From positions 252,162-316,161 of the forward strand of contig NZ_KE386497.1 in NCBI RefSeq assembly GCF_000427465.1: DNA of 64,000 nucleotides, in the 5' to 3' direction. The stretch is from Sinorhizobium arboris LMG 14919 (lineage in GTDB: Bacteria; Pseudomonadota; Alphaproteobacteria; Rhizobiales; Rhizobiaceae). Positions 40,605-51,060 of the stretch are shown here, one piece after another. Position numbers and translations under genes: made by a program. The notes under the pieces were generated by a model, which saw only the letters and a list, made by a program, of their open reading frames with translations, made no database searches and was not told the origin of the DNA. How positions within the stretch are numbered: the stretch's first letter is position 1; each line of letters opens with the position of its first letter.

Positions 40605-40619
40605 CAGACAGGCTTTGTG
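40605..40619 (+). repeat. 15-bp sequence shared with 48034-48048
   Basis: CAGACAGGCTTTGTG occurs 25 bp before the gajA start and again, identical, 21 bp before the first gene of the QueC operon. See findings. Confidence 0.5.
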
Positions 40620-40644
40620 CGTCGATTCCATACTGAGGAAAGCC

Positions 40645-42258
40645 GTGCATATCGAAACCGTCACCCTGCAGAACTTCCGCTGCTTCGGCGCAACGCCGGT
40701 CACGATCACCCTGAAGCCCGGCACGAGTGCTTTCGTAGGTGACAATGGATCGGGCAAGACCGCGGCGCTGGAAGGACTGAAGCGGCTCTTTTCGCCTGTC
40801 GCCGCAGAGAGGCAGATCCGTCTATCGGACGTTCATTTCGGTCCGAATGAGGACGTGCAGACCCTGAGGGGAATTGAGCGAGAGATCGTGATCGATGCCG
40901 TGTTCGGCTTTGCCACGGAGACCGAACCGATGGTCTTTAACGATCTCTTCTTCTCCGCCTCAGACAACACACTGAAGGTCAGGATCCGGCTCGAATGCAA
41001 GTTCTCGAGCAGCGACAGCGCAACCGATGACCTCGAGACCAAGATCTATTCTGTCAAGACGCTGGACCCCGTGCCATTCGGTCCTGACGATGAACGGAAG
41101 AGCCCGCTCCGCGGGCGGCCGACCCAGTATGCCGAAGTGATCTATATTCCCGCCCACAGGGACTCCCGTGGCGTCAGCCAGACTGCGTTGAGAAACCTGC
41201 TACATCGATTGGAATCGTCGGCCGATTGGAGCGACGATACGCGATTGAAATCGAAGGGATTTGCCGACGATTTGGAGGATAACCTCAATGCCACGGAGGC
41301 GATCAAGTATGTAAGCAAGACCCTCGATGGCTTCTGGAAGTCGCTGCACGACGGGCACTACAACGGCACGCCGCGCCTCGGCGTGGTGGCAACCGAATTT
41401 CAGAAGCTGATCCGCGATCTCACAATACGGTTCAGCAAGTCACCGGGCGGTGGCCAGAGGTATCTCGAAGAGCTTAGCGAAGGACAAACATCGCTTCTTT
41501 ACTTCGCCTTGGCTGCCACCTATCAGACCCTGATTTGGGAAATGCAGAAGTCCTTGCCAAACGGCCTCAGCGGATTTCATCCTTCCGATTCCACATTCCC
41601 GGCGCTCACGATCTTCGCTCTCGAGGAACCGGAGAACCATCTCTCTCCGTTCTATCTTCCGCGGCGCGTCGCCCTCCTAGACAAGCTGAACGAAACTGGA
41701 TCCGCACAGGCGATCGTGACCAGCCACGCGACCAGTATCCTGAGCCGGATCCCGCCTCGGAACGTTCGCTACTTCCGCAACTCTCCAGAAACCCTCACGA
41801 GCTCCGCGCTCGAGCTGCCGTTGCCCCAGGAAAGCAGCGAGGAAGACAAATTCATCCAACAGGTCATCCTAGCGAACCCCGAGGTCTACTTTGCGCGCCT
41901 GGTGATCATTGGCGAAGGCGATACCGAACGTGTCGTAATACCAAAGGTCGCGGAAGCATTCGAAGCCAGCCTCGACCCCTCCTTCACCGCGTACGTATCC
42001 ATTGGGGGGCGACACGCGCAGCATCTATGGAAACTGTTGAACGGTCTAAAGGTCCCCCATTTGACCCTTCTTGATTTCGATCTCGGTCGCCATGGCGGCG
42101 GTACCGGGCGCCTGAAAAATGCCGTTGACTGGCGCACCGAGCTTGGGCCTGAATTCACTCCTACGTACGCTTCGGCCGCTAACAGCGACGTTCAAGTTCC
42201 CGCAACGGTCATTCCTGGCAATGAGGTCCTAGCAGGACAAGGATATCTGCCTGGGTGA
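40645..42258 (+). CDS. gajA: Gabija GajA, ATPase and TOPRIM part (OLD-family nuclease)
   Basis: This 537-residue OLD-family protein has Walker A GDNGSGKT at 32-39, signature ELSEGQTSLLYFAL and Walker B IFALEEPENHL. A TOPRIM nuclease domain with IGEGDTER (about 421-428) and LLDFDLGRH follows. GTG 40645 follows GAGGAAAG. In Gabija, GajA nicks phage DNA when nucleotide levels fall, working with the helicase GajB. The frame ends at TGA 42256 just after GYLPG, where homologues would continue; the remainder is the next ORF in the -1 frame. Confidence 0.85.
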   Translation: MHIETVTLQNFRCFGATPVTITLKPGTSAFVGDNGSGKTAALEGLKRLFSPVAAERQIRLSDVHFGPNEDVQTLRGIEREIVIDAVFGFATETEPMVFNDLFFSASDNTLKVRIRLECKFSSSDSATDDLETKIYSVKTLDPVPFGPDDERKSPLRGRPTQYAEVIYIPAHRDSRGVSQTALRNLLHRLESSADWSDDTRLKSKGFADDLEDNLNATEAIKYVSKTLDGFWKSLHDGHYNGTPRLGVVATEFQKLIRDLTIRFSKSPGGGQRYLEELSEGQTSLLYFALAATYQTLIWEMQKSLPNGLSGFHPSDSTFPALTIFALEEPENHLSPFYLPRRVALLDKLNETGSAQAIVTSHATSILSRIPPRNVRYFRNSPETLTSSALELPLPQESSEEDKFIQQVILANPEVYFARLVIIGEGDTERVVIPKVAEAFEASLDPSFTAYVSIGGRHAQHLWKLLNGLKVPHLTLLDFDLGRHGGGTGRLKNAVDWRTELGPEFTPTYASAANSDVQVPATVIPGNEVLAGQGYLPG

Positions 42259-42656
42259 ATTGGCTCCGTAGGTGGGACATCTTCTACTCCGCCCCCGTTG
42301 ATCTCGACATGATGATGATTCAAGCTTTTCTAAGCGCCTACAAGGCGAAGACGGCCTATGTCGCTGAAGATTACGATGAGAAAACGCGGAAGAAGCTGAT
42401 GGAAGCCGTCTTCGGCGAAAGTGGCAAGGGTCTCCCAGAGATTGCTCCGACAGGGATCGAAATCTCGGAAGAACAAGTCCACATCTACCGGGCCCTGTTC
42501 AAGTCGTCCTCCAAACCCGGATCGCATCTGATGGCGTTCTCAAAGCTGACAAAAGAAGAGATACGGTCCGGTTGCCCTGAGCCGCTTCGAGCCCTCATTG
42601 AGAGAGCGAAGGAACTCGTGGCCAAAGCCAGTGCACACGTGGATATAATGTCATGA
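42255..42656 (+). CDS. Detached C-terminal part of GajA
   Basis: 133 codons from GTG 42255, overlapping the gajA stop as GTGA, read NWLRRWDIFYSAPVDLDMMMIQAF. This is the segment that usually closes the TOPRIM domain of OLD nucleases. Either a one-base indel has split gajA, or the protein is expressed as two translationally coupled chains. It overlaps gajB by 4 bp, so the reading frames remain tightly arranged. I count it as part of the Gabija module. Confidence 0.7.
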   Translation: MNWLRRWDIFYSAPVDLDMMMIQAFLSAYKAKTAYVAEDYDEKTRKKLMEAVFGESGKGLPEIAPTGIEISEEQVHIYRALFKSSSKPGSHLMAFSKLTKEEIRSGCPEPLRALIERAKELVAKASAHVDIMS

Positions 42657-44500
42657 GCTACATCCTCCCCGAGGACTGGAAGCCATCGGATGGTGTCCTT
42701 CTCGACGAGCACTCCTTGAACATCGCTCGCGACGCCAACTCCCGATCCATCCTCGCAGGCCCTGGCGCGGGAAAGACCGAACTGCTTGCGCAGAGAGCAA
42801 ACTTTCTTCTAACGACAGGAACTTGTCCGCATCCCAGGCGGATCCTCGCCTTGGCGTTCAAGGTCGACGCCGCGAGAAACCTTCAGGAACGCGTCGCAGC
42901 AAGATGCGCCCCCGCCCTTGCGTCAAGGTTCGAGTCCTTGACACTCCATGGATTTGCCAAGCGTGTCCTCGACCAGTTTCTTGAGGCCTTGCCACCTGAG
43001 ATTCGCCCCACCCCCGACTATCGGATATTCTCGCCTAACAGGGACACCTGGAATGCGTTCCGGGCAGCCGTCTCAGACGAAATCCCGAGCGTAGGCAACT
43101 TCAACGATTCCCAGCTTTACAAGCTCGTGCACTCGACGCCGTCGGGCGATCTATTCGGGAATGTGACTGACGAGATCAGAACGCGGTGGTGGAAATACTG
43201 TGTGCGGGATAACCGCCGGTCTACGATAACGTTCGAGATGGTGATGCTGCTTGCGTTGAAGATCATCGAAACGCGAAAAATCATTGTGTCGGCACTACGG
43301 CAGACATACTCGCACGTATTCCTTGACGAGTTTCAGGATGTCACCGATCTGCAGTACAGGCTTTTCAAGGCGACCTTCCATGGCAGCGGTGCCGTCATCA
43401 CGGCAGTGGGCGACACCAACCAGGCAATAATGGCGTGGGCAGGCGCGCTCCCCGATGTGTTCGAGAAGTTTAACTCCGACTTCTACGCGACGGGATCGAA
43501 GCTTCTATTGAACTTCCGCTCCAACCGCGCAGTCGTTCATCTCATCAATGCCGTTGCTTCAATGTTCGAAGCGAACCCCGTACTGACTCATTCAGCTCGG
43601 GAAAACGATCCCGTTCCTCCAGACGCTGTAGAGGGATGGGTGTTCAACAGCCGGGACGCCGAGGCCGACTTCCTGGCAAAGTTCATCAAGTCAGAGCTCG
43701 ACAATGGGCGCACGCCGGAGGACTTCGTCATTTTGGCCAGGTTGCGTGTCGACCGCATCGAAGACCGATTGAGAGAACATTTCGCCAATGCAAATGTACC
43801 TCTGCGAAATGACTCCCGGAAGATTGGAAGTCTCGAAATCCAGGATCTGGGGAAAGAGCGAGCCTTTCAATTTATCATGTCGGCACTGAAAATGGCCGCG
43901 AACGTTCGCGTCGGCGATCCCTTTCAGGTGTGCAGGGACACTATTGCCGACCTTGAGGGGCTCGATATCGCGAGCGAACGAGGAAGCGCACAGAGCCTCA
44001 GGGCCGTGCAATCGCTGACGAGTGATCTTGGAGAGCTACTGCGCCAGCGGGATACATCAGCGGTCGGCGGTAAGGAGATCTTGCAAGTTGTGATGCCCGC
44101 CTCGAGACAGGAACAGTTCGGTAGAGCCTTCCCTGAGTACAAGGGCAACAGCCATCTGTCGGAGGTCTTGGTCGCATTCTCGGGTTTCTTTGACGAATGC
44201 GCACGTCAGAAGCCCGACTGGAAAGGATGCATCGATCTGATCGAAGGCCGCCGTGTTGTGAAACTCATGACCATCCACAAGTCCAAGGGCCTTGAATTCC
44301 AAACTGTGATCTTCGTTGAACTGAACGATGACGCGTTCTGGAAAAGCGCCGATGACGCCAACATTTTTCTGGTTGCTCTTTCGAGAGCAAGGGAGCGCAT
44401 CAAGTTTTCGTTCGCGAAAGACAGCAAGGGTTTTACCAACGTGCGGGACTTTGTCGATCACCTGGAAAAGGCCGGAGTGCGGTTCGTCTCCAAACCGTAA
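42653..44500 (+). CDS. gajB: Gabija GajB, UvrD/Rep-type helicase
   Basis: This 615-residue SF1A helicase has motif I AGPGAGKTE (35-43), motif II DEFQDVTD (about 224), motif III GDTNQAIMAWAG and motif IV LNFRSNRAVV. Motif V is MTIHKSKGLEFQTVIF and motif VI VALSRARERI. All catalytic motifs are intact. It overlaps the previous frame by ATGA. With GajA it forms the Gabija anti-phage complex, sensing DNA ends and consuming nucleotides. Confidence 0.88.
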   Translation: MSYILPEDWKPSDGVLLDEHSLNIARDANSRSILAGPGAGKTELLAQRANFLLTTGTCPHPRRILALAFKVDAARNLQERVAARCAPALASRFESLTLHGFAKRVLDQFLEALPPEIRPTPDYRIFSPNRDTWNAFRAAVSDEIPSVGNFNDSQLYKLVHSTPSGDLFGNVTDEIRTRWWKYCVRDNRRSTITFEMVMLLALKIIETRKIIVSALRQTYSHVFLDEFQDVTDLQYRLFKATFHGSGAVITAVGDTNQAIMAWAGALPDVFEKFNSDFYATGSKLLLNFRSNRAVVHLINAVASMFEANPVLTHSARENDPVPPDAVEGWVFNSRDAEADFLAKFIKSELDNGRTPEDFVILARLRVDRIEDRLREHFANANVPLRNDSRKIGSLEIQDLGKERAFQFIMSALKMAANVRVGDPFQVCRDTIADLEGLDIASERGSAQSLRAVQSLTSDLGELLRQRDTSAVGGKEILQVVMPASRQEQFGRAFPEYKGNSHLSEVLVAFSGFFDECARQKPDWKGCIDLIEGRRVVKLMTIHKSKGLEFQTVIFVELNDDAFWKSADDANIFLVALSRARERIKFSFAKDSKGFTNVRDFVDHLEKAGVRFVSKP

Positions 44501-44795
44501 GGGTTGACTGCGTCTTGGGCAGCGGCCCTCCACGGCATCACAGACGCGCGCGACTAAAATCGCCGGCGTTTGTCTTGCCCGCAGCGCTACTCCCTTCAGA
44601 GATTGCCGCTGCGACAATGTCCTATACAAGCTTAGTTCGATGTACCATAAGTCCTGGCGGTAGCCCTCTTCGAAGTACCGACCTTTCAACGAAAACAACG
44701 GAAATACTTCGCACACCAATCTGGCCGACCTTGCCATGCATTAAGGTTATAAATATACGTCAGGTTGAGTGGAATACTACGATGAGGCGAACCGA

Positions 44796-47009
44796 ATGAG
44801 ACGCATATACAGACGGGGGCCACCCGCTTTTCTCTCCTCTGAGGTAGTGCTCGCCGAAAAACAGCGCCTACTTGAATATCTGCGGCGCGATCCCGTTGAG
44901 AGGCGGTCGCGGCGCGATAACCTCAATGAGTCACTTTTCTTCGATCCTTCACTTACACGGGAGTTGTATGAGGCTTTCGACGGGACTTGTGCATTCTGCG
45001 AGAGAGCGGTTGAGGAATTCAAAGACGACGAAAGCATTCTTCGGGTAGCACACTTCAGACCGCTTCGGTTCGTGAGGGACAGTTTCGAAGTCGACGAGGA
45101 TTATTACCTTTGGCTCGCTTTCGAATGGCCGAACCTGCATGCCGTGTGCGCCTATTGTGATAAGGCGAAAGGCAATAGGTTTCCTGTGGAGGGCAAGCGC
45201 GCCGACTTTCTGTCCACTTATGATTCTATCAATCGAAGAGAGCGACGTCTCTTGCTGGACCCCTGTGAGGACAATCCCAGCAAGCATTTGCTGTTCCGTT
45301 GTACCGGACTTGTCGAGCCGATCACTGCTCAGGGCAGCGCGACCATCGACATATTCGACCTCAATCGAGATCAACTCGTCCAAAGCCGTCGAACGGCCGT
45401 CAATACGATGTTCGATGAATTGGAGATTGCCTCGTCATCACCTGACGTTGAGTTTGCGCATCTAAAACCAGGATCGTCCCACGCGGGCGCATTGGGACAG
45501 ATTTGGAGGCGCCTGGGGAGCGAAAGGCTTGCTCTGCCGCCGACACTGATTCGCTCAAAGCCCTCTCAATTTCCGTACAAGCTGCAATCATATATCCGAA
45601 GACTAAGCGCAATTGACAGGAAGCACCTTCTGGATGGATTGCGATCACTATCCGATAGCGACCAGGCAACGACTCCGCGAGCGATTGAATGGCATGCCTC
45701 GTCATACGACGACAGTTCGCTTGCCCGACCGAACCTGTTCTTCGCATCAAACCAGGAAATCCGTCAAATCACGGTGCTGGACTTCAAGATAATCGACGCG
45801 CTGAGACTGACGCTTCCTGCAAGCCGAGCGTACCGCGCTGGCGCACCCTGTCTGATGATACTCGGAGAAAACTCTACTGGAAAATCGAGCATTCTTTCAG
45901 CGATCGCACTCGCATTGATCGGGAGGAAGGAGAGCCGAAAGCTCGCAAAGTTCTTCCCAGCAGCCGTGAGGAGTGAGGAACGCGATCGCCTCGACCAGCT
46001 CGACCAGAAACCCATGGGCGTTCATGTTAGTTTCCACCACACACGTCAAACCTCCGGTTTCACATTCGACCCAAGCACGAATTTTGTCGGTGGGCAGGAT
46101 CAAGCGACCATCGTTCTTGGTTACGGTCCAAGAAGATACTTTGATCCCAAAAAACGCGACTACCGAGGCGGCGCCGCAGCCCGCGTGAGAACGCTCTTCG
46201 ATCCCTTGGCCACGATCCCATATCCAGACGAGTGGCTCAATTCCAGAACTCATGCCGAGTTTGAAAAGATCGCTGCGGCACTGCGCGTAGTTCTTGCGAT
46301 GGACGATGACGACGAGCTTCTCAGGGAGGGCCAGACGATAAAGGTCAACGCGAATGGGCGTTCGACCTCTATCGAGGCTCTAAGCGAGGGCTATCGGTCC
46401 GTCTTCACGATGACAGTCGATATGCTTCGGGAATTTTCACAGTACTTCAACAACCTCGAGGAAGCGCAGGGAGTGGTACTGATCGATGAGATCGAAACGC
46501 ACCTGCATCCGCGCTGGAAAATGCAGGTGATGACCTCGCTGCGACGCGTGCTGCCGAAGGTCCAGTTCATCGCTACGACCCATGACCCTCTATGTCTGCG
46601 AGGCATGGACGATGGAGAAGTTGTAGTGCTGCAGCGCAGTGGAGGCCGCGAGGTTAGACAACTTCGAGACCTTCCGAGCATTCGCGGCATGACAGCCGAG
46701 CAATTGCTGACTTCAGATTATTTCGGTCTCGCAAGCACGGCAGATCCGGGCCTAGAACTCCGACTTCTGAAGGAAGCCAACGATTATGCTCGTCGACGTC
46801 CGACAGGCGAGTTTAGCATCCAGGTCTCAGAGCAGACGAAGGCAATGCTAAAGCGCCTGTCATTGGGTGATACGCCTTCTGAGCAAATCATGCAGGCAGC
46901 GCTCGAACGCTATCTCGCCGAGCGAGAGAGTCCGGAGGGCAGATCTCGAACCGACTTACGAGCCGAGGCCGTCGAGGAAGTCGTCGCAGCGCTCAGGAAA
47001 ATTCCCTGA
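44796..47009 (+). CDS. Septu-like ATPase with N-terminal HNH domain
   Basis: This 737-residue protein has a zinc-type HNH domain at about residues 60-130 (CAFCERAVEEF, VAHFRPLRF, WPNLHAVCAYCDKAKGNRFP). A PtuA-like AAA/ABC ATPase follows with Walker A GENSTGKSSILSAI (about 356), signature LSEGYRSVFTM (about 529), Walker B GVVLIDEIETHLHP and histidine switch ATTHDP. The start is ATG 44796 with GAGG 8 nt before. Usual PtuA proteins lack the HNH part. It shares one base with the following HNH gene (TGATG). Confidence 0.85.
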   Translation: MRRIYRRGPPAFLSSEVVLAEKQRLLEYLRRDPVERRSRRDNLNESLFFDPSLTRELYEAFDGTCAFCERAVEEFKDDESILRVAHFRPLRFVRDSFEVDEDYYLWLAFEWPNLHAVCAYCDKAKGNRFPVEGKRADFLSTYDSINRRERRLLLDPCEDNPSKHLLFRCTGLVEPITAQGSATIDIFDLNRDQLVQSRRTAVNTMFDELEIASSSPDVEFAHLKPGSSHAGALGQIWRRLGSERLALPPTLIRSKPSQFPYKLQSYIRRLSAIDRKHLLDGLRSLSDSDQATTPRAIEWHASSYDDSSLARPNLFFASNQEIRQITVLDFKIIDALRLTLPASRAYRAGAPCLMILGENSTGKSSILSAIALALIGRKESRKLAKFFPAAVRSEERDRLDQLDQKPMGVHVSFHHTRQTSGFTFDPSTNFVGGQDQATIVLGYGPRRYFDPKKRDYRGGAAARVRTLFDPLATIPYPDEWLNSRTHAEFEKIAAALRVVLAMDDDDELLREGQTIKVNANGRSTSIEALSEGYRSVFTMTVDMLREFSQYFNNLEEAQGVVLIDEIETHLHPRWKMQVMTSLRRVLPKVQFIATTHDPLCLRGMDDGEVVVLQRSGGREVRQLRDLPSIRGMTAEQLLTSDYFGLASTADPGLELRLLKEANDYARRRPTGEFSIQVSEQTKAMLKRLSLGDTPSEQIMQAALERYLAERESPEGRSRTDLRAEAVEEVVAALRKIP

Positions 47010-47941
47010 TGCGGCGCGTCAACCGTAATGCAGTTGCTGCGCCGGCATCTCTAACCAATCCTTCAGCAGCCGTTTCCACGGAGCGGAGTGAGGCCGTGGC
47101 GCACTACGCTGCCACCACATCGGCATCCTATGAATTCTCGAAATACAAAGAATTCGATGTGAAGTTTTCGCTCGACAAACTCTTTGACAACAAGTGCGCC
47201 TACTGCGAACACCAGCTTGGCGACGGTATGGAAGTCGAACACTTCCGGCCGAAAGGACGGGTCGATGGCGAACCCACACACCGTGGCTACTGGTGGCTTG
47301 CGCTGCAATGGGAGAATTTGCTGCCATCGTGTGCAGGGTGCAACCAGCGCCGCTGCCAGCATCTCGTCACCGTAACCACGACCGAAGCCGAGTATGCAGC
47401 CTTACAGGGAAAGAAGCCGCGAAAGACCGCTGGAAAAGGCAATCATTTTCCTATCTCAGGCGTCAGAGCTTTCGCACCTACCGACAGCCTGCCTGACGAA
47501 GATCACGATATTCTCGACCCGACAGTCGACGATCCCGGCCAGTACTTGACGTGGTCGACCAGCACGACGTTCTCGATCGCGCTTCCCTTAACGACGGATC
47601 CTGCTTTTGCGAAACGCGCGCTCGCGACGATCAATGTTTTCGCACTGAACCGTACAAAACTCGTCCAGTTGCGGACAGGCTTGCTTCGTGAGCTGCGCCT
47701 GAGGGCGGTCGAAATCGAGAATGACCTCGCCGAGGACGCCGCCAATGGCGGATCCCAGTTCGCTGTTCGAAACGCACTCAGGGGTGTCGATGCACTGAGG
47801 CGCTACTGCGAGCCTGACAAGCCGTTTTCGGCGATGGCCCGTGTATTCGTTGAGAACTTTGCGAACCGACTATCGGCTCGCGTGGCAGGCATGCAGGGCA
47901 CTGAGGCCAACGAGTCAGCCGCCCGGCTCGCAGATCCATAA
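47009..47941 (+). CDS. HNH endonuclease, PtuB-like
   Basis: This 310-residue protein has an HNH domain with CAYCEHQLGDGMEVEHFRPKG (first cysteine about residue 63), GYWWLALQWENLLPSCAGCNQRR (second CxxC about 108) and GNHFPI. It is the likely nuclease effector of the Septu-like module, controlled by the ATPase just upstream. The stop-start overlap TGATG implies translational coupling and fixed stoichiometry. Confidence 0.88.
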   Translation: MRRVNRNAVAAPASLTNPSAAVSTERSEAVAHYAATTSASYEFSKYKEFDVKFSLDKLFDNKCAYCEHQLGDGMEVEHFRPKGRVDGEPTHRGYWWLALQWENLLPSCAGCNQRRCQHLVTVTTTEAEYAALQGKKPRKTAGKGNHFPISGVRAFAPTDSLPDEDHDILDPTVDDPGQYLTWSTSTTFSIALPLTTDPAFAKRALATINVFALNRTKLVQLRTGLLRELRLRAVEIENDLAEDAANGGSQFAVRNALRGVDALRRYCEPDKPFSAMARVFVENFANRLSARVAGMQGTEANESAARLADP

Positions 47942-48033
47942 AGCGATTGGCTCACCTCAAGCCCATTGCGGCAATGTAATTGAGGAAACACTGTTCGTTG
48001 AGATTGCGCGTCCGCTAGAATCATTTCAGGTTG

Positions 48034-48069: not shown

Positions 48070-48432
48070 ATGGGAAGCTCCGGTTCGGGCAGTTTTACGG
48101 ATTATAGTGGATCGAAGAGACCGGATGGTACAGGCGGCTCCAGTGGCAAGGATCCTTGTCGAACGGCTTTCTCGGCAAAGTTGGAGGAAGTGGGGCAATG
48201 CGATTTCTTCGTTACCAACAACACCGTCCCTGCCGCTGACACAGTCCTCTCAATCGTGTTTGAAGGCCGGATCTTCGCTGTGACAGAGAATGGCAAGAAG
48301 GTCGGAGCCTTGCCGACCAAGTTCAATTATCTGGCTGGCTGCCTCAAGGAGGGCATCACCTATGCCGGCATCGTGACGGATTCCGGCTTGCAGCCGTTCC
48401 CCTTCGTCGCAGCCGACTTCACGCCCCAATGA
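48070..48432 (+). CDS. Small Gly/Ser N-terminus protein of QueC defence operon
   Basis: This 120-residue cytosolic protein, from ATG 48070 with GGGGGA upstream, begins MGSSGSGSFTDYSGSK. A flexible Gly/Ser segment of about 28 residues is followed by a small folded domain (RTAFSAKLEEVGQCDFF, LPTKFNYLAGCLKEGITYAG, ending VAADFTPQ). Met removal would expose Gly2. QatB proteins of the Qat defence system also begin Met-Gly and are reported targets of QueC-type modification (from memory). The gene overlaps the next by ATGA, so it is probably the substrate or effector of the module. No other function is recognised. Confidence 0.75.
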   Translation: MGSSGSGSFTDYSGSKRPDGTGGSSGKDPCRTAFSAKLEEVGQCDFFVTNNTVPAADTVLSIVFEGRIFAVTENGKKVGALPTKFNYLAGCLKEGITYAGIVTDSGLQPFPFVAADFTPQ

Positions 48433-49766
48433 CCGCGGCTGACGATCTGCCGCTCCTGGTGGTCGGCGAGATCGTCGTCGACTTTACGAGCGCCCGGACG
48501 GATGTCGCATGCAAACTTCGCCTTGGAGGCATCGTGCATGCCGCGCGCGGGCTCTGGGCCTGCGACTTACCGTATTCGGTAGCGGCCATATGCCCGAGTT
48601 ATCTCGTCAGCCAGGCCCGAGCATATCTGGCGGCGCATGGATGTAATGACTTCGTCTGGCTGGGAGAAGTTTCGGGCGCGCCGAATGTCATGGTCATTGG
48701 TGACGCAACGGAAGTCTCCGATCAGGGATACGAGGATCTTCTGAGGACTGAGAAATCCGTTAGGATCCTCGATGTAGGCACGTCACTTTCAGGCTACCGG
48801 GATGTTCTCGTCTTTCCCGGCAGTTATGATCTTTCCGCGGTGCGCCCGTTCCTAGGTGATAATGCCCGCCTAAGCTTCGACATCGCCTACGACGCGGACG
48901 ATTTCTCGATCTTGAATGACTTCTCAGGACACCTGGGCGCAATTATCATATCGACGTCGTCGCCACTTTTTGTGCGAACAGGATCCCTGTCGGTGGAGCC
49001 CATGCTCGACAGCGCAAGGAAACTCGGCGCCGAGGTATTCCTACTCAAGGAGAACCGCGGCGGAAGCCGTCTGTTCGATTTGCGTACGCATGCGGTCGAA
49101 GAAATCCCAGCAACGCTGTCCAATACGGTCAACTCCGTCGGTGTCGGCGATGTCTATTCCGCGGTTATGATCGGCTTTCACGCCCGTGGATGGGTAGAGG
49201 CAGGATGGCGCGGTGCGAAAGCCGCCACGGTCTACTCGCAGACCACCTTCCCCGACGATTTCCGGCGAGACACGAAGCGAGAACTCGCGCTTTCGCTCAA
49301 GGAGCTGCGCGATCTCGGCGGAACGATCCTGCCGTGGCATGATCGCCCGCAGTTTCAGATCTATCTTGCAGCCCCCGACTTCTCCTACCTTCACAAGCCT
49401 GAGATCGAGCGCGCGGTCGCGGCCCTCAGCTACCACAACTTCTCGGTCCGGCGCCCGGTCGTCGAGAACGGCGAGCTGCCGCTGGGAAGCTCGGAGGCCG
49501 TCCTCCTTAGGACCTATGCGGCTGATGTAGCGTTGCTTGAGGAATGCCAAGTCGTGTTCGCGATCCCGCTGGAACGCGACCCCGGCACTCTGATCGAAAT
49601 GGGAATGGCGATGGCCGTGGAGAAGGCTGTCGTAACATTCGACCCCCGTCGACAGAATGAAAATACGATGGTCATCGGGGGAAGCGCTAGCTACTCAGAT
49701 GATCTCGACACGAGTTTGAACGCTTTATTCATGGCGCTGTCGGATCTGCGGAAGAGGAAGTCATGA
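48429..49766 (+). CDS. PfkB-like kinase domain fused to nucleoside 2-deoxyribosyltransferase-like domain
   Basis: This 445-residue protein has residues 1-300 resembling a PfkB/ribokinase fold, with VVGEIVVDF at the start and the anion-hole segment NSVGVGDVYSAV at about 234-245, where the usual GAGD is GVGD. Residues about 308-440 resemble nucleoside 2-deoxyribosyltransferases (QIYLAAPDF, ERDPGTLIEMGMAMAV with the candidate catalytic Glu). Such a protein could phosphorylate or cleave a nucleoside, perhaps supplying a nucleobase to the QueC-like enzyme. Overlaps of 4 bp on both sides bind it to the operon. Confidence 0.8.
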   Translation: MTAADDLPLLVVGEIVVDFTSARTDVACKLRLGGIVHAARGLWACDLPYSVAAICPSYLVSQARAYLAAHGCNDFVWLGEVSGAPNVMVIGDATEVSDQGYEDLLRTEKSVRILDVGTSLSGYRDVLVFPGSYDLSAVRPFLGDNARLSFDIAYDADDFSILNDFSGHLGAIIISTSSPLFVRTGSLSVEPMLDSARKLGAEVFLLKENRGGSRLFDLRTHAVEEIPATLSNTVNSVGVGDVYSAVMIGFHARGWVEAGWRGAKAATVYSQTTFPDDFRRDTKRELALSLKELRDLGGTILPWHDRPQFQIYLAAPDFSYLHKPEIERAVAALSYHNFSVRRPVVENGELPLGSSEAVLLRTYAADVALLEECQVVFAIPLERDPGTLIEMGMAMAVEKAVVTFDPRRQNENTMVIGGSASYSDDLDTSLNALFMALSDLRKRKS

Positions 49767-50404
49767 AAAAGGTCATTCTACTTGCGTCAGGTGGTCTGGA
49801 TTCGACGACCGTTGCCTATTCGCTCGTCGCCGAGGGAGCGGACGTTTTCCCCATATTCTTCGACTACGGACAGCATTGCGTCGAGATGGAGTGGAACCGG
49901 GCGAACGAAGTTCTGCCCGCGGAGATGCGCAGGCCAGAACGCTGCGACGTTTCCGATCTCTTCCGTGGGTCGTCATCCCGTCTGATCAAGGAAGCGGATT
50001 TGTGGACCGAGGAAGTCGCAGACGATGACCTTTATGTACCCTACCGGACTATGCTGTTCTTTGCGGCCGCCGCAGCCCGTGCCCAAACGCTTGGAATCCT
50101 TGAAGTATACACGGGCTTCATCAACAGCAACCACGCCAAGGAAATCGACTGCACGGCCGAATTCATGAACAAGCTGGACGGCCTCGTCGAGAACGTCGGC
50201 CCGGTCCGTTTCCATTCGCCATTTCGGTACTCATCAAAGACGGAAGTAGCGCAGGCTGCAATCCGCCTGGGCGTGCCAATAGGACGGACCTATTCGTGCC
50301 AGGCGGCCAGTGATTTCCCCTGTGGCGCTTGTCCCAATTGTGTTGAGCGCATCCGTGCGCTAGAGGAGGCCGGTCTTGCGTATCGCAAAGCAAAGGTCGG
50401 GTAG
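49763..50404 (+). CDS. QueC-like ATP-dependent deazaguanine enzyme
   Basis: This 213-residue protein has a PP-loop SGGLDSTT at residues 9-16 and a C-terminal zinc site C179, C187, C190, C193 (SCQAASDFPCGACPNC). Both match QueC (7-cyano-7-deazaguanine synthase). It lacks queuosine neighbours QueD and QueE and lies in a defence island, so it is unlikely to serve tRNA modification only. QueC homologues in type IV CBASS and Qat are reported to join a deazaguanine to protein N-termini. Here the neighbouring MG-starting protein is the obvious partner (inference). Confidence 0.88.
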   Translation: MKKVILLASGGLDSTTVAYSLVAEGADVFPIFFDYGQHCVEMEWNRANEVLPAEMRRPERCDVSDLFRGSSSRLIKEADLWTEEVADDDLYVPYRTMLFFAAAAARAQTLGILEVYTGFINSNHAKEIDCTAEFMNKLDGLVENVGPVRFHSPFRYSSKTEVAQAAIRLGVPIGRTYSCQAASDFPCGACPNCVERIRALEEAGLAYRKAKVG

Positions 50405-50406
50405 CC

Positions 50407-51060
50407 ATGCAATCGTCGGCAGTTCAAATGCTCGTCGCGGCTCGGCGCGTTGCCGACTACGCGAAGGAATTGGGAGCTGATTTACAGCGCTTCGAAATCC
50501 GGCCCGCTTACGACCACATGGGGGCGCTGCTCGCTGACTCGGTTCTGCAAGCCGGACTGAACTACAACTCCGTGGTTCGGCCGCGTATCCTGGCAATCCT
50601 GGCAGACTATCCTGAATTGAACCGCACGTCCGGCCTGCGTAGCTTGGTTGAGCGCGGGGAGACGCCTGCATTTCTCAATTGGACCCACCAGGAAAAGGTT
50701 GGCCGTTTCGACGCCCTTGTTCTGTTCCTCGACGACGCGGCCATTGAAAGCGTGGATGACCTAAAGGAGCGCCTGCAGGACAGCGACAGGTTCGCGACAG
50801 CTCTTCGAGGCGTAAGGGGCGTTGGCCCCAAGACCGTGGACTACATAGGCTGCCTGGTCGGGATCGACTCTGTCGCCGTAGACCGTCACGTCCGAACCTT
50901 TGCGAAGCGGGTCGGTGTCATGGAAGATGACTACGATTTCCTGAAGGCGGTTTTCTGCTACGCGGCCGATCTCTTGTCTGTCTCAAGAAGGGAGTTCGAC
51001 GCATGGGTTTGGCAGCGCGAGTCGTCGTTGACTGCGCGGCAAATGGCGTTCGCGTTTTAG
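50407..51060 (+). CDS. HhH-GPD DNA-glycosylase-like protein (OGG-like)
   Basis: This 217-residue protein has a helix-hairpin-helix GVRGVGPKTVDYIG with Lys142 in the position used by bifunctional glycosylases, and the GPD aspartate Asp159 in DSVAVDRHVRTF. No Fe-S cluster cysteines follow. It starts 2 bp after the queC-like stop. OGG-like proteins are also accessory genes in type IV CBASS. It might excise a base, remove a modified base, or bind the deazaguanylated partner. Confidence 0.85.
   Translation: MQSSAVQMLVAARRVADYAKELGADLQRFEIRPAYDHMGALLADSVLQAGLNYNSVVRPRILAILADYPELNRTSGLRSLVERGETPAFLNWTHQEKVGRFDALVLFLDDAAIESVDDLKERLQDSDRFATALRGVRGVGPKTVDYIGCLVGIDSVAVDRHVRTFAKRVGVMEDDYDFLKAVFCYAADLLSVSRREFDAWVWQRESSLTARQMAFAF

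Follow-up and report, generated by a model that had tools for sequence, protein, structure and literature searches.

Conjugation of a nucleobase to a protein has been shown in type IV cyclic oligonucleotide-based antiphage signalling systems (CBASS) and inferred in Qat, whose reaction resisted reconstitution. The published reaction of type IV CBASS uses 7-carboxy-7-deazaguanine (CDG) and requires QueD and QueE. A further group of QueC enzymes, 'Cluster 4', which has a PF00294-PF05014 neighbour, is filed as likely purine salvage in a recent survey (Libby et al. 2026, PMC13329287). In this study, we analysed a 64,000-nucleotide stretch of the Sinorhizobium arboris LMG 14919 genome (contig NZ_KE386497.1, positions 252,162 to 316,161; hereafter the window) and found an operon of four genes, which encode a small protein, a fusion of a PfkB-like kinase and a nucleoside 2-deoxyribosyltransferase, a QueC-like PP-loop enzyme, and an HhH-GPD DNA glycosylase-like protein (HhH protein). 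With moderate confidence, we propose that this operon is an anti-phage system which would tag the N-terminus of the small protein, the identity of the base being left open.

Conservation and setting of the four-gene unit

The small protein carries an N-terminal tail of the MGSSGSG type, followed by a body (residues 31-120) for which the predicted structure indicates a HIRAN fold. A protein search recovered 73 relatives, 66 of which start with MG; of the others, five are longer, with an MGS start further in, P0010 is a fragment that belongs to the window itself, and P0072 starts with MESS. An alignment (A2) comprises 68 of the 73 relatives, P0005, P0010, P0011, P0053, and P0057 having been dropped. 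The mean frequency of the majority residue is 0.85 for residues 1-12, 0.54 for residues 13-27, and 0.55 for residues 28-120. The tail is the most conserved part of the protein, yet it is modelled as disordered. A partner with a conserved N-terminal glycine on a disordered tail, encoded beside QueC, is what QueC-mediated N-terminal modification calls for, and the proposal of the initial annotation that the small protein is the acceptor is supported in that its glycine tail is a likely acceptor site; we treat the small protein as a putative acceptor. Because it matches no Pfam family at E 0.1, we term it 'HIRAN-fold' rather than file it as a HIRAN member. The small-protein gene is unannotated in the public records of two loci (L143, 4293-4667; L060, 2434-2802), and missing annotation of this kind may account for the absence of the small acceptor gene from a published survey of QueC neighbourhoods.

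We scanned one genome per species and recovered 54 loci, which belong to Pseudomonadota, Bacteroidota, Planctomycetota, a Deltaproteobacterium, and TM6; the spread of the operon across phyla is wide and patchy. All four genes are present in the same order in 51 of the 54 loci. Two of the three exceptions (L027 and L058) end at a sequence edge, and in the third (L055) QueC is truncated and no match to the HhH protein was found. The truncated QueC of L055 (9687-9947) and a split HhH frame in L008 (10341-10990) are either damaged copies or assembly errors. A chance run of unrelated genes is ruled out by this constancy of order. Since no additional gene family is common to more than seven of the 54 loci, the unit comprises four genes without a separate conserved effector, and a hidden fifth effector gene is likewise ruled out. 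The term 'minimal' used in the initial annotation fits poorly a system whose four genes are held together so consistently. Pairwise distances among the four proteins correlate at 0.75-0.96 (49 loci).

As the 54-locus scan used the tail as search pattern, tail conservation there is by construction, and our claim about the tail rests on the search for the 73 relatives and on reverse-test loci found without the tail. The small protein was present in all 20 reverse-test loci, of which 17 were found via the fusion in a viral collection (15 of these 17 contigs had also surfaced via the small protein) and three, the plasmid loci H1, H2, and H4, via QueC. The tail, (M/V)GS[ST]G, is readable in 19 of the 20, the match in L075 beginning at residue 28; QueC is present in 19 and the HhH protein in 17, with the remainder at sequence ends. 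That the small protein and the QueC-like gene occur together, a point on which the initial annotation had staked its proposal, was seen in the scan as well as in this reverse search.

The fusion has no strong match in 32 other genomes of the same genus (a distant one occurs in G010), and among 398 genomes of the phylum a strong match was found only in the window's own genome, with weak ones in four others. In a tree of the joined fusion and QueC sequences (51 loci), well-supported branches group Halomonas and Billgrantia with Burkholderiales and Sedimenticola with Rhodobacterales, and nest TM6 within Bacteroidota; these misplaced taxa are a sign of horizontal transfer.

Around the operon, 189 of 337 flanking open reading frames (ORFs) were tested against PADLOC at E<=1e-10, taking at most the four nearest per locus of at least 180 aa within 5 kb; 334 models were matched by 105 ORFs and 93 by 84 ORFs, and these counts are of models, one ORF being able to match many. 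As a control, 72 ORFs beside 18 of the 19 canonical queC loci of carrier genomes matched 25 models, mostly of one Dpd system. AriA, Gabija, Septu, type I restriction-modification, RT-Toprim, dGTPase, Pycsar, and AbiE are among the flank systems in the matches listed. DpdB and DpdF models, which represent 7-deazaguanine DNA modification, were matched beside one control canonical queC (flanks L144-L161). In L018, the operon lies between portal/capsid genes and a tape-measure gene, and the adjoining phage-type gene recurs in seven of the 54 loci; the small protein was also found on 16 contigs of the viral collection. These observations indicate that the operon is also prophage cargo. Together with the Gabija and Septu modules upstream in the window, the PADLOC-rich flanks and the prophage setting bear out the defence context that had been suggested from the window alone.

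The three enzymes and the identity of the base

All three enzymes of the operon keep catalytic residues. The fusion matches the deoxyribosyltransferase family (Nuc_deoxyrib_tr, PF05014, E 3.8e-13) over residues 311-410, and G238, G240, D241, D366, and E390 are invariant in 22 aligned rows. The PfkB half of the window's fusion has no Pfam match; its assignment rests on PF00294 matches in three of 22 relatives, a weak profile match to ribokinase (E 0.0044), and an invariant GxGD. The initial identification of this protein therefore stands by Pfam for the transferase and on these other grounds for the kinase. The last protein of the operon (217 aa) has no Pfam match either, and its HhH-GPD glycosylase-like identity is upheld by a predicted model (mean pLDDT, the predicted local distance difference test score, 93.7) which matches MagIII and endonuclease III; model and alignment together place a catalytic Lys/Asp pair at the invariant K142 and D159.

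The QueC-like enzyme matches QueC structures in the PDB and Cap9 (9nto), and scores 103.1 bits against TIGR00364, whose cut-off is 150.3. Its SGGLDS motif is invariant, and Y35, R95, D129, and the four zinc cysteines are kept in 52 of 52 operon QueCs. In all 52, E127 and Q180 replace the canonical tyrosines, so that a Glu occupies the position whose side chain, in Cap9 and QueC, stacks on the base. Canonical copies have Tyr at both positions in 19 of 20 cases, the 20th (L096) having been read in the wrong frame. In E. coli QueC the two tyrosines, Y131 and Y189, are essential (PMC13329287). Given the loss of this signature and the lack of any queD, queE, or queF within the operon, an ordinary queuosine operon is ruled out. 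The initial annotation was right that the operon holds no queuosine genes; the host genome has a canonical queC adjoined by queE on another contig.

We surveyed 50 of the 54 carrier genomes (those of L054, L055, L056, and L058 were left out), counting as canonical QueC a PF06508 match of at least 194 bits. Canonical QueC was found in 19 carriers, PTPS/QueD in 34, QueE in 32, and TGT in 49, and 15 carriers yielded no match to canonical QueC, QueD, or QueE. Of these 15, nine carry no metagenome-assembled or uncultured label, and 14 have TGT. On the 15, three more carriers, and the host of the window, a second QueE model gave a strong match in the host only; five other genomes had weak matches (19-25 bits) that lay in longer frames. 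Of the 54 loci, L005 is the closest to the window, with 86-93% identity between the operons, and its genome is one of the 15. In the family of the carrier G073, 54 of 61 genomes have no PTPS/QueD match, and among 60 genomes of Flavobacteriaceae, the family of G067, a full-length QueC match was found only in two carriers, G067 and G102. Because such gaps are typical of some of the carriers' families, they look like lineage traits rather than missing data. For the same reason the operon QueC is rejected as a stand-in for a lost canonical QueC, the lack of which is typical of Flavobacteriaceae. G067, G086, G087, G093, G102, G105, G106, and other Bacteroidota carriers have QueD and QueE matches and no canonical QueC.

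Carriers in which the pathway was not found probably salvage their queuosine precursors, and CDG would not be made in them. Considering that the active-site residues of the operon QueC are identical in carriers with and without the pathway, the tag may be a salvaged compound or no 7-deazaguanine at all, and host-made CDG is probably not the base in every carrier. The idea that the tag is a 7-deazaguanine, which came with the initial annotation, is weakened by these carriers and by the Glu at the stacking position. PP-loop enzymes which join amines to ordinary bases include TilS and GMP synthetase.

Proposed mechanism and competing explanations

In the mechanism that we favour, which resembles that of type IV CBASS, the predicted HIRAN-fold protein would receive a guanine-like nucleobase on its N-terminal glycine through the action of the QueC-like enzyme. 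Met1 would be removed and Gly2 would enter the QueC-like active site, and the base would be activated with ATP and then attacked by the alpha-amine. The fusion would provide the base in free form or process it after conjugation, in the place that TGT-like Cap10 has in type IV CBASS, the HhH protein would serve as a sensor of bases in phage DNA or as an enzyme acting on them, and the HIRAN domain would be the nucleic-acid-binding head of the tagged protein. If true, this would be a third, small system with another acceptor fold and with carriers that lack the genes for the known base, making conjugation a general immune strategy; the question of which base is used and where it originates would become directly testable on one small protein.

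Several points weigh against this mechanism. Searched by Foldseek alone, the small protein has no PDB match at E<=0.001, the best reaching 1.4e-3. Every operon QueC has Glu and Gln in place of two tyrosines that are essential to the E. coli enzyme, and the genes for the known base were not found in the 15 carriers mentioned above. The flanks of the control loci, too, hold some defence genes (Dpd, mad, dGTPase, and BrxL models), and in seven of the ten small proteins of the Cluster 4 kind described below, residue 2 is Ser rather than Gly. Finally, a survey of gene neighbourhoods (PMC13329287) has proposed purine salvage for the related QueC Cluster 4 with its PfkB/deoxyribosyltransferase neighbour.

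Salvage of purines or deoxynucleosides, in which the QueC-like enzyme would make a small molecule and the fusion would recycle nucleosides with no protein target, agrees with that proposal and with the invariant kinase and transferase residues. It leaves unexplained the constant HIRAN-fold partner with its invariant glycine tail, the HhH protein with its kept Lys/Asp pair, the defence-island and prophage setting, and the lack of a strong match in the 32 other genomes of the genus, and we regard it as improbable. Another possibility is a defence by DNA modification or base excision: the HhH protein and the deoxyribosyltransferase would attack modified phage bases, the QueC-like enzyme would modify the released bases, and the small protein would be a DNA-binding guide only. 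The HhH fold assigned by model with its invariant K142 and D159, the predicted HIRAN fold, which is seen bound to DNA in HLTF structures, and the capacity of DNA glycosylases to defend against phage (PMC11078745) are all consistent with it. A guide, however, needs no invariant extreme N-terminus, and there is no TGT/DpdA-like DNA transglycosylase among the four genes, which makes this explanation unlikely in our view.

Two further possibilities keep the tagged glycine and concern the base. True deazaguanylation, with the same reaction and acceptor and host-made CDG as the base, is suggested by D129, the aligned counterpart of the Asp with which Cap9 and QueC read the Watson-Crick edge of the base, by the queC and queE of the window's host, and by the QueE and PTPS/QueD matches in many of the carriers. 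Against it stand the 15 carriers in which QueC, QueD, and QueE were all not found, the genome of L005 among them, as well as an active site that is the same with and without the pathway and has Glu in place of the stacking Tyr. The absence looks real, since most genomes in the family of one such carrier likewise have no PTPS/QueD match, and we regard CDG as an unlikely base. Alternatively, the base might be a purine from nucleic acid and not a 7-deazaguanine: the HhH protein and the deoxyribosyltransferase would free it from phage DNA or nucleotides, the PP-loop enzyme, akin to TilS or GMP synthetase, would ligate it to the N-terminal Gly of the HIRAN-fold protein, and the transferase and kinase would build a protein-bound deoxynucleotide. 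This is quite unlikely on present grounds, yet if true, a DNA-reading protein would be marked with the invader's own base, giving a new nucleobase-protein conjugate and a new way of sensing infection.

The window and its relation to named systems

The four genes lie on the + strand at 48070-51060 with two 4-base overlaps and one 2-base gap, directly downstream of the Gabija and Septu modules, as the initial annotation had placed them (Table 1). For the small-protein gene, a mechanical ORF call places the start upstream, at 48031. The two overlapping GajA ORFs match separate parts of the GajA model, and the gene is possibly broken or split. In addition to the separate PtuB-like gene, there is a PtuB/HNH-like stretch at the N-terminus of the PtuA-like ATPase (44769-47009), where NF041761 matches below its cut-off (E 3.6e-13).

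Table 1. Operon genes and upstream defence modules in the window
Feature	Position	Strand	Remarks
Gabija-like module	40615-44500	+	GajA in two ORFs and GajB; PADLOC
GajA ORFs	40615-42258 and 42255-42656	+	PADLOC GajA, E 9.8e-151 and 1.1e-24
GajB	42653-44500	+	PADLOC, E 2.3e-181
Septu-like module	44769-47941	+	PtuA-like and PtuB-like; PADLOC
PtuA-like	44769-47009	+	PADLOC PtuA, E 2.1e-240
PtuB-like	47009-47941	+	PADLOC PtuB, E 8.6e-91
Small protein, 120 aa, starts MGSSGSGSFTDYSG	48070-48432	+	Gly/Ser-rich tail at about residues 1-27; predicted HIRAN-fold domain at 31-120; putative acceptor
PfkB-like kinase (N-terminal part)/nucleoside 2-deoxyribosyltransferase fusion, 445 aa	48429-49766	+	Transferase domain at about residues 310-430
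QueC-like PP-loop enzyme, 213 aa, putative nucleobase-protein ligase	49763-50404	+	PF06508, E 1.6e-32
HhH-GPD DNA glycosylase-like protein, 217 aa	50407-51060	+	Lys/Asp pair K142, D159 kept

Two kinds of related operons were found. Four plasmid loci, L061 (1694-6056), L062, L088, and L089, from Rhizobium, Neorhizobium, and Agrobacterium, encode a PfkB-like protein, a TIR-TGT fusion (checked in L061, PADLOC TGT E 1.8e-22), an HhH protein, a QueC-like protein, and a second TIR protein. The N-terminus of this partner, which is ThsB-like in L061, is MGGGSS or MGGGGG. This sister system looks like type IV CBASS with TIR replacing the CD-NTase; since its ThsB-like TIR protein has a comparable tail, the system would connect the modification to a likely killing enzyme.

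The other kind, plasmid and archaeal operons (L059, L060, L080-L087), fits Cluster 4 by sequence signature and neighbour. The ten small proteins of these loci, including the unannotated one of L060, begin with M[SGC][GS], and a profile (A6) of nine of the ten is related to the small-protein family of our operon (hhalign 96.6%). Two of them adjoin anti-phage dGTPase genes. QueC operons of this kind with a small HIRAN-like protein were noted in L060, L080-L087, L059, L091/L093 (G010), and L126; some also have a nitroreductase-like gene after QueC, and genes for DNA adenine methylase or anti-phage dGTPase nearby. The searched passages of the published Cluster 4 survey contain no mention of the small protein or of an HhH protein (PMC13329287).

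No description of the four-gene unit was found in the literature searched, which covered few subscription papers. The operon resembles Cluster 4 (PMC13329287) in that its QueC-like enzyme adjoins a PfkB/deoxyribosyltransferase fusion, and also in its small glycine-rich-tailed HIRAN-like protein as read in L059, L060, and L080-L087. Unlike Cluster 4, however, it has an HhH gene directly 3' of QueC in 51 of the 54 loci, and its QueC, about 30% identical to Cluster 4 QueCs, has Glu at a position that is His in the latter. In the operon QueC the zinc signature is CQ(x)6CxxCxNC, whereas that seen in L060 is CH(x)5CxxCxGCxK, which rules out that the operon is Cluster 4 itself. With canonical QueC, the enzyme of preQ0 synthesis, the operon QueC shares the fold, the P-loop, the zinc cysteines, the Arg of VPxRN, and the Asp of YPDC, but the Tyr of YPDC and the Tyr after the first zinc Cys are replaced in all 52 cases.

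Like Qat (QatABCD), the operon combines a QueC-family enzyme with a tailed partner; that of Qat has a long disordered tail which starts with MGTS and is essential for defence. In contrast to the operon enzyme, QatC, at about 400 aa, carries extensions, its substrate motif has Thr/Thr, and QatB is all-helical. The operon QueC scores 16.9 bits against the QatC model NF041925, whose cut-off is 280, neither the QatA KAP ATPase nor the QatD TatD nuclease is among the four genes, and no fifth gene is conserved. With type IV CBASS, the operon shares a QueC-like enzyme that contains YxQ(x)5E and the zinc motif Cx(x)6CxxCxxC, an N-glycosyl-transfer enzyme, and a partner with an MG-G/S tail. Whereas type IV CBASS has QueC-like Cap9, TGT-like Cap10, and a CD-NTase, the operon has the fusion and a predicted HIRAN-fold partner instead. 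Pfam and PADLOC gave no match among the four genes to the CD-NTase, the signalling enzyme and modified protein of type IV CBASS, and no TGT match to a Cap10 of the TGT family in the operon proteins, and the operon QueC has E127-x-D129-C130 in 52 of 52 copies instead of the Cap9 substrate motif YxDC. The PADLOC OGG model, which, like the TGT model, we take to belong to type IV CBASS, matches the operon weakly (E 0.0021), the HhH-GPD fold being assigned by model. The initial annotation had already pointed to the lack of a CD-NTase, a Qat ATPase, and a TatD nuclease among the four genes, and Pfam and PADLOC agree. Because these defining parts were tested for and are missing, the operon would work like, but is no member of, type IV CBASS or Qat. 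Across the operon and its sister systems a common pattern emerges, in which a QueC-like enzyme and an HhH protein are combined with an enzyme of N-glycosyl transfer, either a TGT or a deoxyribosyltransferase, and with a partner whose N-terminus has a small residue and glycines.

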